Shown here: piece after piece, positions 7,122 to 12,843 of the stretch | Numbering within the stretch: position 1 is the stretch's first letter | How the letters are laid out: every line of letters begins with the position of its first letter | From: Phycisphaerae bacterium | GTDB taxonomy: Bacteria; Planctomycetota; Phycisphaerae; Phycisphaerales; UBA1924 | Assembly: GCA_030426395.1 (NCBI GenBank) | Contig: JAUHYE010000005.1 | Span: 1-64,000, forward strand | DNA length: 64,000 bases | Direction of reading: 5' to 3' | Translations under genes and position numbers: made by a program | The notes under the pieces: model-generated | The model's input: only the letters and a program-made list of their open reading frames with translations | Told to the model about the DNA's origin: nothing | Database searches by the model: none

Positions 7122-8008
7122 GCGTGCGTAGAGGGGCTTTCGGGCGCATTCCGGAAGCCCTACGAAGCCAACGAGAACCCGTGCGCGCACGCCGGGCTTC
7201 CCAGCCTCCAGCGCCCGGGTGATGGTCTGGCCACGAGCCGCAAGCCGGGTAAAAGGTGCGCTCATGGAGCACGCCGCGCCGAGCGGAACTTCGGCGTTGG
7301 AGACGCTGCGCGCACCCGAAAGGCACACCGTTTCGATCCTGAAATCGGTCGCGTCGAAGGCGTCCGAAGGGGTGCCGAGTTTACCGGAACGACGTGTTTG
7401 GCGACCGAAGGTCAAAAAAATTTATCCGAAACGCAAGAAATTTTTCGGACCGTCCGAGAGCGTGCCGCGCGCTCGGCGGGGATGCTCGGCGCAACCGAAA
7501 TGGGCGTGTGGTCGGCCAACCCGGCGAACGGAACGCGAGGGATTGGCGGGCGCCCGCGCGAGTCGTCGGGGCGTGGCGTATGTGGAACTCGAATCGGGTC
7601 ATCGGCATCGTGTACCGCGCCGAAATGCGAGAAAACTTCGATGAATTCAATAGTTTTGCGTGCACACGCGGCAACGCGCATCCCGGCGCGTACGTGCTCG
7701 TCGTCGTCTTGAGAGGGGGATGCTCGTTCGTGGAAGCGAACGCCGCGGCTTCGTGGTCGTTTGGCTTCGAGGTGTCCCCACTGGGGTTGCGCGACGCGTC
7801 GTACGCGTGCTCTTGGTGGCTGGAAGGCGGTGCGCGAGGGTCAAAAAAAATGTGGACGAAACGGAAAGTTCTAGTAGACTACTCAAGCCGTATGGGGAAC
7901 AGACCCGATACACGCTGCGCGCGCCCTTTGTCCGCGGAGATGTCCGGCCCGCAATTTTGGCGCGTGTAGTAGCAAGGCGAAGCCGGACATCAGAGCAGGA
8001 GTTTGCTC
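7122..8008. other. Long non-coding stretch upstream of the histone H1-like gene
   Basis: About 0.89 kb without a convincing gene. Short frames on both strands are Arg/Ser-rich and differ from real genes here. Visible structure: an imperfect 10-bp stem-loop at 7134-7160; and a motif present twice, GGTCA followed by seven to eight A, a short variable spacer, then CGAAACGNAA (about 7410-7436 and 7839-7867). Each copy stands out as AT-rich in GC-rich DNA. The second copy, followed by TTCTAGTAGACTACTC, lies about 145 bp before the Lys/Ala-rich gene and could be part of its promoter. The duplication suggests tandem regulatory sites or an unannotated RNA. Confidence 0.4.
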
Positions 8009-8407
8009 ATGGCGAAGAAAGCCGCAAGGAAGAAGGCCACCCGCAAGAAGGCGGCCAAGAAGACGACCCGGAAGAAAGCGACCCGCAAGAAGGCCACTCG
8101 CAAGGCCGCCCCCCGCAAGACCGGCGCCCGGAAGAAGGCCGCCAAGAAGACCACGCGGAAGAAGGCGACTCGCAAAACCGCCACTCGCAAGAAGACGGCC
8201 AAGAAGGCAACCCGGAAGAAGGCTGCCAAGAAGACCACTCGCAAGAAGGCCACACGCAAGAAGGCGGCTCGCAAGAAGACCGCCAAGAAGGCCACTCGCA
8301 AGAAGGCGACCCGGAAGAAGGCCACACGCAAGACCGCCGCTCGCAAGACCGGCACGCGCAAGAAGGCCCGCCGCAAGGCCACCCGCCGCGCTCCGGCCGG
8401 CATGTAA
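8009..8407 (+). CDS. Histone H1-like Lys/Ala/Thr-repeat DNA-binding protein
   Basis: A 132-residue, extremely basic protein built almost entirely from short units of the type KKATRKKA / KKAAKKTTRKK. It has no acidic residues in the repeat and ends RRKATRRAPAGM. This matches the bacterial H1-like (AlgP, HC1/HC2-related) C-terminal-tail proteins that condense DNA. No globular domain is present, so it is the tail-only form. ATG 8009 is chosen over TTG 8003 because CAGGAG lies seven bases upstream. Frames on the opposite strand over the same bases are artefacts of the repeat. The gene stands alone after a long non-coding region. Role as a nucleoid protein is inferred from composition. Confidence 0.8.
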   Translation: MAKKAARKKATRKKAAKKTTRKKATRKKATRKAAPRKTGARKKAAKKTTRKKATRKTATRKKTAKKATRKKAAKKTTRKKATRKKAARKKTAKKATRKKATRKKATRKTAARKTGTRKKARRKATRRAPAGM

Positions 8408-8541: not shown

Positions 8542-9180
8542 ATGTCACCCATCGACGCCAGCGATCAGCAGCACGCGCGCATCCGGATGCTGGCGCACCT
8601 TGCGGGCGTCATGGTGTGCGATGCGGGCGCCGAGCCCTGCCGCCTGGTCGTTGCCGAGGCGGGCGGCTCGATCACGCTGCCCATGCACCGCGACCTGGAC
8701 GAAGCCGGGCACTGGTCGTTCGCCGCCCCACAAGAGATGGACCCGGCCATTGAACTCTCACTCGAAAGTGTAATTGGTAGCGACGACCTGCCAGACCCCG
8801 ACGAGATCGAAGCCGACCGTTGGCTGGCCTACCACGGCTCGACACCGCCGAAGTGTTGCTTGGTGTCGCTTGCAGTCTCGTTCGCCAGGTACGCGGATCA
8901 CGATGGGCGGACGCACGTGGCCGAGGATGTGCTGACGCCGAACCCCCTGCGAGCCCACGTGCCGGTGTTGTGCAAGTTGCTCAACGCCGACAAGGCGAAG
9001 CTGGCCGGCGCGTGCGCTCGCCATACCGGCGTGCGACCCGAGTCGCCCGTCGCGGTTGGCGTCGACGAGTGGGGCGTGCATGTGCGGGCGGCGTTCGACG
9101 TGCTGCGGTTGGGGTTCAAGGAGGCAGCGATGGACGAGGCGGCGGCGAGGGAGCGGATCGGGGAGGTGCTGGGTGGGTGA
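8542..9180 (+). CDS. Hypothetical protein, possible DUF2470/HugZ-like C-terminal domain
   Basis: A 212-residue soluble protein (MSPIDASDQQHARI; an in-frame ATG at 8500 would add 14 residues). The N-terminal half has short strands (CRLVVAEAGGSITLPMHRD) like a flavin split barrel. The C-terminal half reads VLCKLLNADKAKLAGACARH...PVAVGVDEWGVHVRA...LRLGF. This is similar in order to the DUF2470 domain of HugZ-type pyridoxamine-oxidase-like proteins (a helix with NAD, then a GxDxxGxxxR strand pair). The resemblance is weak and by eye, so no enzyme activity is claimed. Its last 8 bp overlap the start of the amidohydrolase gene, so the two are translationally coupled and probably act together. Confidence 0.5.
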   Translation: MSPIDASDQQHARIRMLAHLAGVMVCDAGAEPCRLVVAEAGGSITLPMHRDLDEAGHWSFAAPQEMDPAIELSLESVIGSDDLPDPDEIEADRWLAYHGSTPPKCCLVSLAVSFARYADHDGRTHVAEDVLTPNPLRAHVPVLCKLLNADKAKLAGACARHTGVRPESPVAVGVDEWGVHVRAAFDVLRLGFKEAAMDEAAARERIGEVLGG

Positions 9181-10426
9181 GCGGCCGGCACACCAACCGA
9201 AGGTAATGCGGGAAGCGCACGCGCACTTGCTGGCCCACGGGCGGGCAATGGACATGGTACAACTCGAGTCATGCACCACAGCCCAAGAGATGCTCGACGC
9301 CATAGCCGATGCGGCGGTCGGACGCGAACTGGTGCTGGCCCATGGCGCCCGCCCCGAATCGTGGCTCGAGCCGGGCTGGCCAACGCTCGACGAGTTGGAC
9401 TACGCGAGCCCCGAGACGAGCGTGGCGGTATGGTGCTTCGACTACCACGCCATGATGGTGAACTCGAACGCTCTGAATGCCATCGGCTTTGGCATCGACA
9501 CGCCAAATCCTGACGGCGGGCAGATTGGCCGGAAGCCCGATGGTGCGCTCTCTGGTGTCCTGTACGAAGCCTCGGCAGGTTTGGCGTGGAAGCAACTGGA
9601 GCCCAAGGGCATCGATGCCGGCGAGTTGCAGCGTTCGATCGATGACCTCGCCGAACACGGGTTCACGCATGTCCATGACCTCAAGGCCCAGCCCGGCCTC
9701 GGTGAAGCGTTCAAGTCGGTGCATATTCCACACGACTTCCGGCTCGTCCTCTACCCCCTCGTCCAAGACCTCCCCGAAACCCTGAAGACCCGCAGCGACT
9801 GGCAATCCGACCAGATCCGCCTCGGCGGGGGCAAGATCTTCGTCGATGGCACGCTCAACTCACGCACGGCGTGGATGCTGCATCCGTTCGCCGATGGGCG
9901 GGGCGAGCACCCCGCGGGCATGCAACTCATGAGCGACAAGTCCATCGAAGACGCCATCAGGCTGTGCGTGGGCGAGGGGCTGCAACTGACCGCCCACGCC
10001 ATCGGTGATGCGGCGGTGCGTGCCGTGCTCGATGCGGCCGAACGGGCGCGCGCGCCACGCGGGTCGGTTCGGATCGAGCACGCCGAAGTGATCGACGAGG
10101 CGGACGTGCCGCGCTTCGCCGAGCTTGGGGTCATTGCCAGCGTGCAGCCGTGCCATTTGCTCTACGACATCGAGGCTCTGAGGCGGGCATGCCCCGACCG
10201 GCTGGAACGCGTGCTACCCCTGCGCGAACTCATCGACAGCGGCCTGAAGCCGGGCCGGAACATCCTCTTCGGCAGCGACACGCCCATCGTCCGGCCCAAC
10301 CCCGAGGACTCGATCCTCGCGGCGACCAATCGGGGGCGGGCGGACATGGCCCTCGCTGAGGGCATTGCGCCGGGCCAGGCCATCTCTGAGGATGAGGCCT
10401 GGGCGTGCTTCGATGCCGACGCGTAG
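9173..10426 (+). CDS. Amidohydrolase family 3 (YtcJ-like) TIM barrel without the beta-sandwich
   Basis: A 417-residue metal-dependent hydrolase. GTG 9173 has an excellent GGGGAGG six to seven bases upstream, inside the end of the previous gene; ATG 9206 is the alternative. The sequence opens at the metal-binding strand (REAHAHLLAHGRAMDM, where relatives have DAHxHL). It continues with VHDLKAQPG, GGGKIFVDGTLNSRTAWM, the HAIGDAAVRAVLDA metal-ligand region, RIEHAEVIDEADV, SVQPCHLLYD and FGSDTPIVRPNPE, all typical of YtcJ-type amidohydrolases. Relatives are usually 500-550 residues because a beta-sandwich made from both ends surrounds the barrel. Here both ends are missing: it begins at the first barrel strand and stops at ISEDEAWACFDADA. 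Substrate unknown. Read as a shortened but possibly active enzyme. Confidence 0.75.
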   Translation: MGERPAHQPKVMREAHAHLLAHGRAMDMVQLESCTTAQEMLDAIADAAVGRELVLAHGARPESWLEPGWPTLDELDYASPETSVAVWCFDYHAMMVNSNALNAIGFGIDTPNPDGGQIGRKPDGALSGVLYEASAGLAWKQLEPKGIDAGELQRSIDDLAEHGFTHVHDLKAQPGLGEAFKSVHIPHDFRLVLYPLVQDLPETLKTRSDWQSDQIRLGGGKIFVDGTLNSRTAWMLHPFADGRGEHPAGMQLMSDKSIEDAIRLCVGEGLQLTAHAIGDAAVRAVLDAAERARAPRGSVRIEHAEVIDEADVPRFAELGVIASVQPCHLLYDIEALRRACPDRLERVLPLRELIDSGLKPGRNILFGSDTPIVRPNPEDSILAATNRGRADMALAEGIAPGQAISEDEAWACFDADA

Positions 10427-10463: not shown

Positions 10464-10493
10464 TTAGAATTGTTCTAAGCAGTTGTTTAAAAT
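10464..10493 (+). promoter_or_regulatory. Candidate promoter with overlapping 15-bp palindrome upstream of uvrB
   Basis: TTAGAATTGTTCTAA (10464-10478) is a perfect inverted repeat with 6-bp arms and a 3-base centre. It overlaps a weak -35 (TTAGAA) 18 bp from a good -10 (TAAAAT, 10488-10493). A symmetric site over the promoter of uvrB, a standard SOS gene, is what a LexA-type operator would look like. The sequence is not the Gram-positive, proteobacterial or other LexA box I know, so the regulator is an inference. Confidence 0.5.
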
Positions 10494-10499
10494 GTATCA

Positions 10500-10595
10500 A
10501 AGGTGCTATCGCACGGAGGAGTCCGAGCGAAGCACCAGGATATCTTCTCGCTCTCTCGGGCGGGCTCGGGCCTTCGGGTCGGGGCCCGCCTTTTG
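10500..10595 (+). ncRNA. Candidate ~95-nt structured leader RNA or sRNA before uvrB
   Basis: Transcription from the TAAAAT promoter would begin near 10500, directly at a long hairpin. GGTGCT(10502)-A-TCGC-A-CGGA-loop GGAG-TCCG-A-GCGA-AGCACC(10536) gives 14 pairs with one bulge and one A/A mismatch. About 20 nt later a second hairpin with a UUCG loop and a T-run ends the RNA (10559-10594). The compact two-hairpin form fits either a small RNA or an attenuated uvrB leader. The GGAG exposed in the first loop resembles CsrA/RsmA targets, which is a guess. It matches no riboswitch family I recognise. Confidence 0.5.
10559..10594 (+). terminator. Rho-independent terminator/attenuator in uvrB leader
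   Basis: The stem GGCGGGCTC (10559-10567) pairs with GGGCCCGCC (10582-10590). It extends through GGCC/GGTC to a UUCG tetraloop closed by C-G (10573-10576) and is followed by TTTT. It lies 30 bp before the uvrB ATG, so it either ends a small RNA or attenuates uvrB. Confidence 0.7.
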
Positions 10596-10623
10596 GCTTC
10601 GAACGATTTCCTACCGTTCCGCC

Positions 10624-12843
10624 ATGCCCCACCGCCCCTTCGAGATCGTCAGCCAGTTCAAGCCCATGGGCGACCAGCCCTCGGCGATCGAGGCATTGAC
10701 CGAGCGGCTGCGTTCGGGGGCCGATTCGGCCACGCTGCTGGGGGCCACGGGAACGGGCAAGACGTTCACGATGGCCAACGTCATCCAGCGGCTGGGCAAG
10801 CCCACGCTGATCATCAGCCACAATAAGACGCTGGCGGCCCAGCTCTACGAGGAGCTGCGGGAGTTCCTGCCGCACAACAGCGTCAACTACTTCGTGAGCT
10901 ACTACGACTACTACCAGCCCGAGGCGTATATACCCCAGAGAGACATCTATATCGAGAAGGACGCGAGCCGGAACGAAGACCTCGACCAGCTCCGCCTGGC
11001 CGCGACGAGCAACATCCTGAGCCGCCGGGATACGGTGGTCGTCGCCAGCGTGTCGTGCATCTTCGGCCTCGGTTCGCCCGAGGCGTACGGCGACAAGGTG
11101 CTGACCTTCAGCAAGGGCGTGCGCGTCGATCGGCGGCAGCTCTTCGCATCTCTGACTGCCATGCAGTACAAGCGGAGCGACTACGAGTTCAGTCGTGGGC
11201 GATTCCGGGCCCGCGGGGACGTCATCGAGGTGTGGCCCGCGTCGGAACGGTTCGCGGTCCGGCTCGACCTCTTCGGCGACGACCTGGATCGGCTGGAGCT
11301 CATCAACCCGACGTCGGGCGAGGTGCTGGCCGAGGAGGACACGTTCCACCTGTTCCCAGCCGTGCACTACGTGCTGCCCGAGGAGCAGCTCGAGACCATC
11401 GCCGACGACATCTCGCGGGAGCTGGACTCTCGCGTGCTCGAGTTGCGGAGCGAGGGCAAGCTGCTCGAGGCCCAGCGGTTGCTGGCCCGCACGAAGTATG
11501 ACCTGGACCTGATCAAAGAGACCGGGAGCTGCCCGGGTGTCGAGAATTACAGCCGCTTCTTCGATGGACGCATGCCAGGCGAGCGACCCTTCACGCTGCT
11601 GGATTACTTCGATTACGCACCGCGGCCAGGTATGGGCGAGGCGACGATGCTGCCGCGTGCGGAAACCAACGATCAACTGGTCCAGCGCGATGACAAGCGA
11701 CGTGCCGGACGGCCCAACATCGACGACTGGCTCGTGATCATCGACGAGAGCCACGTCACGCTGCCGCAGGTACGGGCGATGTTCAACGGCGACCGCATGC
11801 GCAAGGAGACGCTGGTCGAGCACGGCTTCCGGCTGAGCAGCGCGCTGGACAACCGGCCGCTGCGGTTCGAGGAGTTCGAGCGGGTCGTGCCGCAGATGAT
11901 GTTCGTGAGCGCGACGCCCGGGCCGTACGAACTCGAGCGTACGGGCGGGGAGATCGCCGAGCAGGTCATCCGCCCTACGGGCCTGCTGGACCCCGGCGTG
12001 GAGGTGAAGCCCGCCGACGGGCAGGTGCCGGATTTGCTGGAGGAGTGCAAGGCCGCCGTCGCGCGCGGGGATCGGGTGCTCGTCACGGCTCTTACGAAAC
12101 GATTGTGCGAGGATTTGGCAAGCTATCTCGACCAGAACGGCCTGCGGACGCGCTACCTGCACAGCGACATCGAGACGCTCGAACGGCTCGAGATCATCAC
12201 CGATTTACGAGAAGGCTCGTTCGACGTGCTGGTGGGCGTGAACTTGCTTCGGGAGGGCCTCGACCTGCCCGAGGTGGCGCTGGTAGCGATCCTGGACGCC
12301 GACAAGGAGGGTTTCCTGAGGAGCCCGACGAGCCTGATCCAGCTCATGGGCCGGGCGGCCCGCAACGTCAACGGCCGGGTCGTGATGTACGCCGACAAGA
12401 TGACGCCGGCGATGAAGAACGCGCTCGACGAGACCGACCGCCGCCGCGAGAAGCAGGTGGCGTATAACGAGAAGATGGGCATCACGCCCGCGACGATCCG
12501 CAAGGAGATCCGCCGCGGCATCGAGATGCAACTGCGAGCCCGCAAGACGGCGCGCGAGGCGGCCGGCACGGCCGAGGAGGCGTTCGACATCGCCGAGTTG
12601 ATGCGGGAACTCGAAGCCGAGATGCTTGAGGCGGCGCAGTCGTTGGAGTTCGAGAAGGCCGCTCGATTACGCGATCAGGCTCGGAAGCTCAAGGAACGGC
12701 TGGCCCAGGGCGACACGGCGAAGATACGACGCAGTGAACTCGATGAGGGCAAGCAGAACAAGCGGCAGCGGCGTAGCAAGGCCGGCAAGCCCGGAACTCC
12801 CGGCAGCAAGCCGACGAAACGCAAGAAGCGGACGAGCGGATGA
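10624..12843 (+). CDS. uvrB: UvrABC system protein B
   Basis: The DNA-damage recognition helicase-like subunit of nucleotide excision repair. It has 739 residues against about 670 in most bacteria. Seen: Walker A GATGTGKT (40-47), the beta-hairpin region YDYYQPEAYIPQRDIYIEKD, SVSCIFGLGSPE, the DEAD-box-like IIDESHVTLPQ, FVSATPGPYE, GVNLLREGLDLPE, QLMGRAARNVNG and the C-terminal UVR motif (ELEAEMLEAAQSLEFEKAARLRD) that binds UvrC. A roughly 35-40-residue insertion sits between LLDYF and the DESH box (around GEATMLPRAETNDQLVQRDD), and a basic tail follows the UVR domain. ATG 10624 (MPHRPFEIVSQFKPMG) is family-like although no ribosome site precedes it; upstream in-frame codons lie in the structured leader. 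The 3' end overlaps a small membrane-protein gene. Confidence 0.97.
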   Translation: MPHRPFEIVSQFKPMGDQPSAIEALTERLRSGADSATLLGATGTGKTFTMANVIQRLGKPTLIISHNKTLAAQLYEELREFLPHNSVNYFVSYYDYYQPEAYIPQRDIYIEKDASRNEDLDQLRLAATSNILSRRDTVVVASVSCIFGLGSPEAYGDKVLTFSKGVRVDRRQLFASLTAMQYKRSDYEFSRGRFRARGDVIEVWPASERFAVRLDLFGDDLDRLELINPTSGEVLAEEDTFHLFPAVHYVLPEEQLETIADDISRELDSRVLELRSEGKLLEAQRLLARTKYDLDLIKETGSCPGVENYSRFFDGRMPGERPFTLLDYFDYAPRPGMGEATMLPRAETNDQLVQRDDKRRAGRPNIDDWLVIIDESHVTLPQVRAMFNGDRMRKETLVEHGFRLSSALDNRPLRFEEFERVVPQMMFVSATPGPYELERTGGEIAEQVIRPTGLLDPGVEVKPADGQVPDLLEECKAAVARGDRVLVTALTKRLCEDLASYLDQNGLRTRYLHSDIETLERLEIITDLREGSFDVLVGVNLLREGLDLPEVALVAILDADKEGFLRSPTSLIQLMGRAARNVNGRVVMYADKMTPAMKNALDETDRRREKQVAYNEKMGITPATIRKEIRRGIEMQLRARKTAREAAGTAEEAFDIAELMRELEAEMLEAAQSLEFEKAARLRDQARKLKERLAQGDTAKIRRSELDEGKQNKRQRRSKAGKPGTPGSKPTKRKKRTSG

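Follow-up and report, generated by a model that had tools for sequence, protein, structure and literature searches.

The interval between an amidohydrolase gene and uvrB, in a 64,000-nucleotide stretch of DNA from a Phycisphaerae bacterium (the whole stretch is hereafter referred to as the window), contains a palindrome followed by two hairpins, and the question that it raises is which gene these elements serve or once served. The initial annotation assigned them to uvrB, with the palindrome overlapping the −35 element of its promoter as a candidate SOS operator, and the RNA in its leader as a candidate small RNA (sRNA) or attenuator. The features of the interval and its flanks are as follows:

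8003–8407, + strand: gene for a histone H1-like protein, composed almost entirely of AKK/TRKK repeats
9056–10426, + strand: amidohydrolase gene (Amidohydro_3; Pfam PF07969, E = 3e-54), the neighbour conserved on the upstream side
10464–10478, no strand assigned: palindrome TTAGAATTGTTCTAA, putative PerR-type operator (exact match, same motif in relatives)
10488–10493, + strand: alternative −10-like hexamer TAAAAT, seen in the sequence, which would put the palindrome over the −35 position
10502–10536, + strand: 14-pair hairpin with the loop GGAG (folding z = −6.15 alone)
10547–10593, + strand: block with orthologues in the katA 3′ UTR and terminator of the sister species G004, and in a remnant in the related G003
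10558–10591, + strand: terminator-like hairpin with a UUCG cap; its 3′ end carries a short U-run, CCTTTTGG
10612–10617, + strand: TACCGT, −10-type hexamer of uvrB, 6 nt upstream of the ATG (10624)
10624–12843, + strand: uvrB (from its translation; conserved in 99 of the 101 genomes searched)

The palindrome is present as described in the initial annotation, in a single copy in the window, where none would be expected by chance (100 shuffles). It matches TTAGAA-N3-TTCTAA exactly, and has one mismatch if read as a 7-1-7 repeat. Its overlap with a −35 element is doubtful, as a promoter scan identified no sigma70-type promoter and the palindrome itself contains a −10-type hexamer, TAGAAT (10465–10470). 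The streptococcal Per box has been published as TTANAATNATTNTAA, and PerR binding has been demonstrated for promoters with TTAGAATTATTATAA and TTAGAATCATTTTAA (PMC2518855). The window box, a 15-bp inverted repeat, agrees with this consensus at every specified position except one, with G for A at position 9, and the same change is found in other boxes of the family. The motif suggests that 10464–10478 is most likely the operator of a PerR-like repressor of the Fur family.

The exact pattern TTAGAANNNTTCTAA was found at 26 sites, distributed over 22 of the 151 genomes; the reversed control gave 10 sites in seven genomes. The box loci of relatives were examined at one locus per relative (21 loci; ten proteins checked against Pfam, catalases identified by PF00199 coordinates and the rest by resemblance), and at 15 of the 21 the box preceded a gene linked to peroxide, iron storage or Fe-S clusters. 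The genes behind the box encoded catalase (four loci), KatG (two), AhpC-type peroxiredoxin (three), Dps (one), a ferritin-like protein (one), cysteine desulfurase (three), a NifU-like protein (one) and a DCC thiol oxidoreductase; the remaining five loci lacked genes of this kind. Within the genus, the box pattern (≤2 mismatches) precedes katG, a cysteine desulfurase gene and a Fur-family gene in several congeners. The same three targets were identified in the genome to which the window belongs: TTAGAATCATTCCAG precedes katG, CTGGAATGATTCTAA, read on the strand of the gene, precedes the cysteine desulfurase gene, and CTAGAATCCTTCCAA precedes a perR-like Fur-family gene, adjoining its start codon. 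Judging from the position of the motif, the box most likely marks a PerR-type regulon, in the relatives and in this genome. Short tandem-like repeats (GCCCGGGCAGAACTC and CTGACGACCGG) are located just upstream of katG (L156, about 1530–1700) and perR (L060) in the same genome.

This distribution bears directly on the SOS reading, according to which LexA would control uvrB through the box. The box adjoins uvrB, a common SOS gene, and the genome contains a lexA-like gene, but its recA and lexA genes have only background matches (best 7–8 of 14 positions within 250 nt), whereas peroxide and iron genes carry the motif. A search of this genome for the exact palindrome with up to three mismatches gave a count equal to that of the reversed control and no copy at recA, lexA or other repair genes; informative matches in this genome came from the symmetrical PerR-style pattern alone. 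Moreover, the uvrB genes of congeners have no box directly upstream, and the −10 motif of uvrB in the window lies about 135 nt downstream of the box, beyond the terminator. An SOS operator is scarcely credible in these circumstances. The part of the proposal that stands is the operator-like nature of the palindrome, in a compact unit ending in a terminator; its SOS identity does not.

Two Fur-family proteins are encoded in this genome, at L060 and L059, and the first is the candidate regulator:

1360–1836 of L060 (C109 of this genome), − strand: perR-like gene, 158 aa

The L060 protein aligned best with Bacillus subtilis PerR (2fe3; E = 3.6e-12). It keeps the ligand positions H37, D85, H91, H93 and D104, has the PerR-type Asn (VYN) and lacks the CxxC zinc motif, and its L059 paralogue carries the Fur/Zur-type VYR. 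Asp/Glu and Asn/Arg residues discriminate PerR from Fur, and PerRs that likewise lack the cysteine motif for the structural metal are known from another phylum, in Leptospira (LIMLP_10155 and LIMLP_05620; PMC8638851). In four congeners, the box is found at the start of the L060 gene itself. In the start region of the perR-like gene at L060, L158, L161 and L162, for all of which CxxC is absent, the box reads CTAGAATNNTTCCAA; TAGAAT is a possible −10 element there, and the ATG lies inside or just behind the box. On this arrangement, the perR-like gene is apparently autoregulated and near-leaderless.

The box might alternatively belong to another regulator of the Fur family (Fur, Irr or Zur-like, including the L059 paralogue) and convey an iron rather than a peroxide signal. 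Cysteine desulfurase and NifU-like genes are among the targets, and the L060 protein also matches Irr models, below their cut-offs. An iron signal has to be considered because the alphaproteobacterial Irr box is likewise TTAGAA-N3-TTCTAA. It is nevertheless unlikely, given the box at the start of the L060 gene, the PerR Asp/Asn hallmarks of its product, the VYR of L059 and the presence among the targets of catalase, katG, AhpC and Dps, the classic targets of PerR.

The predicted PerR-type regulon shares with those of Bacillus and Streptococcus the 15-bp operator, before catalase, AhpC, Dps and perR genes, and the type of regulator, with His/Asp ligands and Asp104 in the protein from this genome. 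It differs from them in the G at position 9, in a regulator with no CxxC structural zinc site, in the inclusion of cysteine desulfurase, and in that the window operator is not followed by a protein-coding gene of its own. A literature search on PerR in planctomycetes found none, and the literature found contains no description of a PerR-type regulon in the Phycisphaerales. The supposed new SOS operator gives way to a predicted PerR-type regulon in these planctomycetes, with its motif, its targets and a likely regulator that has no zinc site.

If the window box is a PerR operator, the gene that it served can be sought at the same locus in related species. The amidohydrolase gene is syntenic in G002–G006. 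In G004, it is followed by TTAGAATGATTCTAA, 55 nt, a catalase gene (katA; 512 aa, Pfam PF00199, ribosome-binding site AGAGGAGG) and the terminator block. In G003, it is followed by a weaker box-like sequence, TCAGAATCGTTCCAA, 65 nt and the terminator, with no catalase gene. The block at 10547–10593 is 91% identical over 47 nt to that of G004 and 94% identical to that of G003. This identity exceeds that expected from neutral drift since these species split, because the fourfold sites of uvrB are only about 60–64% identical among them (43–44 of 47 identities against the fourfold-site rate; binomial P about 5e-6 or less). Homology to G004 restarts 12 nt past the katA stop codon in G003 and 22 nt past it in the window. 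The terminator block is unique to the amidohydrolase-uvrB locus in the three genomes and is not, therefore, a repeated element. In G004, a gene with the C-terminus DFDGDGELTIFDFLAFQNAFDAGCP, located downstream of the terminator, converges with katA across this shared element (L082 and L083); this gene is a fragment in G003 and is absent from the window.

No PF00199 catalase was found in the assembly containing the window, which is 93% complete, so that one elsewhere could be missed; such catalases were identified in 44 of the 151 genomes searched. No coding remnants of katA were found in the window. Given the comparison of G004, G003 and the window, the simplest account of the locus is deletion of the catalase frame, with the operator and terminator left behind, and we consider it very probable that the palindrome and hairpins before uvrB are the orphaned control region and terminator of a lost catalase gene. 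The tree inferred from five neighbouring proteins, ((G000,G004),(G003,G005)), in which G000 is the genome of the window, implies that the frame was lost separately in G000 and G003, and that G005 lost the entire unit. As an alternative to repeated loss, acquisition of the catalase frame by G004 is formally possible. The genus was sampled with seven genomes; a search for further congeners yielded only L122, apparently of the same species as G006.

The uvrB gene itself appears to be independent of this unit. Of the 30 uvrB loci compared, from the window genome and from 29 relatives, 28 have a TAnnnT hexamer 4–9 nt (mostly 5–6 nt) ahead of the start codon, against a background of 0.9% at other ATG/GTG codons in the same loci. 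On the strength of this difference, uvrB most likely forms a separate transcription unit with a near-leaderless promoter of its own. In most of the family, uvrB appears to be near-leaderless (uvrB loci L015–L044).

This promoter motif argues against the placement of the RNA in the uvrB leader and, therefore, against its action there as a transcription attenuator or riboregulator. That reading draws on the presence of two hairpins before the uvrB ATG, the second of which is a terminator, but the unit is closed by this terminator of its own, and in G004 the box and terminator flank katA rather than uvrB, with the catalase frame between them. The distance from terminator to uvrB is about 0.4 kb in G003 and 1.75 kb in G004, and in G005 the amidohydrolase stop codon and the uvrB start are separated by only about 25 nt, with no trace of the feature between them. 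We consider attenuation of uvrB to be very unlikely.

The lost catalase gene also provides a context for the RNA. Deletion of the catalase frame would have left about 68 nt between operator and terminator, with a strong predicted fold (z = −4.5). Within this stretch, the 14-pair hairpin with the GGAG loop, as initially annotated, was recovered at 10502–10536, with 6 + 4 + 4 pairs, one bulged A and one A/A mismatch; the UUCG-capped element also proposed in the initial annotation is a terminator-like hairpin and is preceded by a pyrimidine-rich stretch, CTCGCTCTCTC. The whole RNA has a predicted folding energy of −54.6 kcal/mol (z = −3.5, versus shuffles). A Shine-Dalgarno-like GGAGGAG (10515–10521) lies within the first hairpin, 36 nt from the box, versus 39 nt from box to catalase ribosome-binding site in G004, and because these distances are similar, the hairpin may in part derive from the former catalase leader. 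The hairpin has no significant homology to the G004 leader or to the interval between box and terminator in G003 (p about 0.1 for G003). This G003 interval, from the one comparable genome, has no significant fold (z = −1.0); in this comparison neither the structure nor the sequence of the RNA body is conserved, and the terminator alone is kept. A gathering search of the 64-kb window against Rfam gave no match, a search of plasmids for similar DNA found nothing, and a search of the window's own genome for further copies of the RNA gave only short chance matches.

A non-coding transcript of about 95–120 nt between box and terminator is plausible from this arrangement. PerR carrying its metal would occupy the box and, because the box includes the −10-type TAGAAT, would block initiation by RNA polymerase. 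Following the PerR paradigm, peroxide would oxidise the repressor and release the box, and the freed promoter would yield the short RNA, ending at about 10594 at the old catalase terminator, with uvrB expressed independently from its own promoter.

Such an RNA could be functional: a peroxide-inducible sRNA under PerR, built from what were the promoter and terminator of the catalase gene, and maintained by selection once the frame had gone. The perfect match of the box to TTAGAA-N3-TTCTAA, the better preservation of box and terminator than of neutral sites in two lineages, the near-equal spacing between them (65 nt in G003 and 68 nt in the window), and the strong hairpin followed by CTCGCTCTCTC are all consistent with selection on the unit. 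Its hairpin is, however, not conserved in G003, the remnant is found in two genomes only, and it has neither a second copy in its own genome nor an Rfam match in the window. In addition, the terminator could have been retained for the upstream amidohydrolase gene, and the intact box would be explained if the catalase had been lost recently. A functional sRNA is thus a minority possibility, and we are doubtful that deletion of the catalase frame gave rise to a novel non-coding RNA, inducible by peroxide, that was retained and used, turning a protein gene into an sRNA gene. Like sRNAs regulated by Fur-family proteins, such as IsrR and PrrF, the window unit would consist of a short RNA and a terminator behind a Fur-family operator; unlike them, its RNA is predicted from the sequence, has a body that is not conserved, and would be derived from a lost catalase gene. 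Under the orphaned-catalase explanation, the locus exemplifies how loss of a stress gene can leave its operator and terminator intact on either side of non-coding sequence, and remnants of this kind could plausibly give rise to new small RNAs.

The box does not precede all catalase genes of the family: 4 of 30 scanned catalase loci scored 13–14 of 14, and the catalase boxes of G004 and G029, found by pattern, are additional to these four. Several box-less catalase genes (L104, L107, L112, L121 and L103) have an OxyR-like motif, ATAG-N7-CTAT, about 100–130 nt upstream. Based on these motifs, catalases in the family seem to be controlled by PerR in some genera and by OxyR in others.
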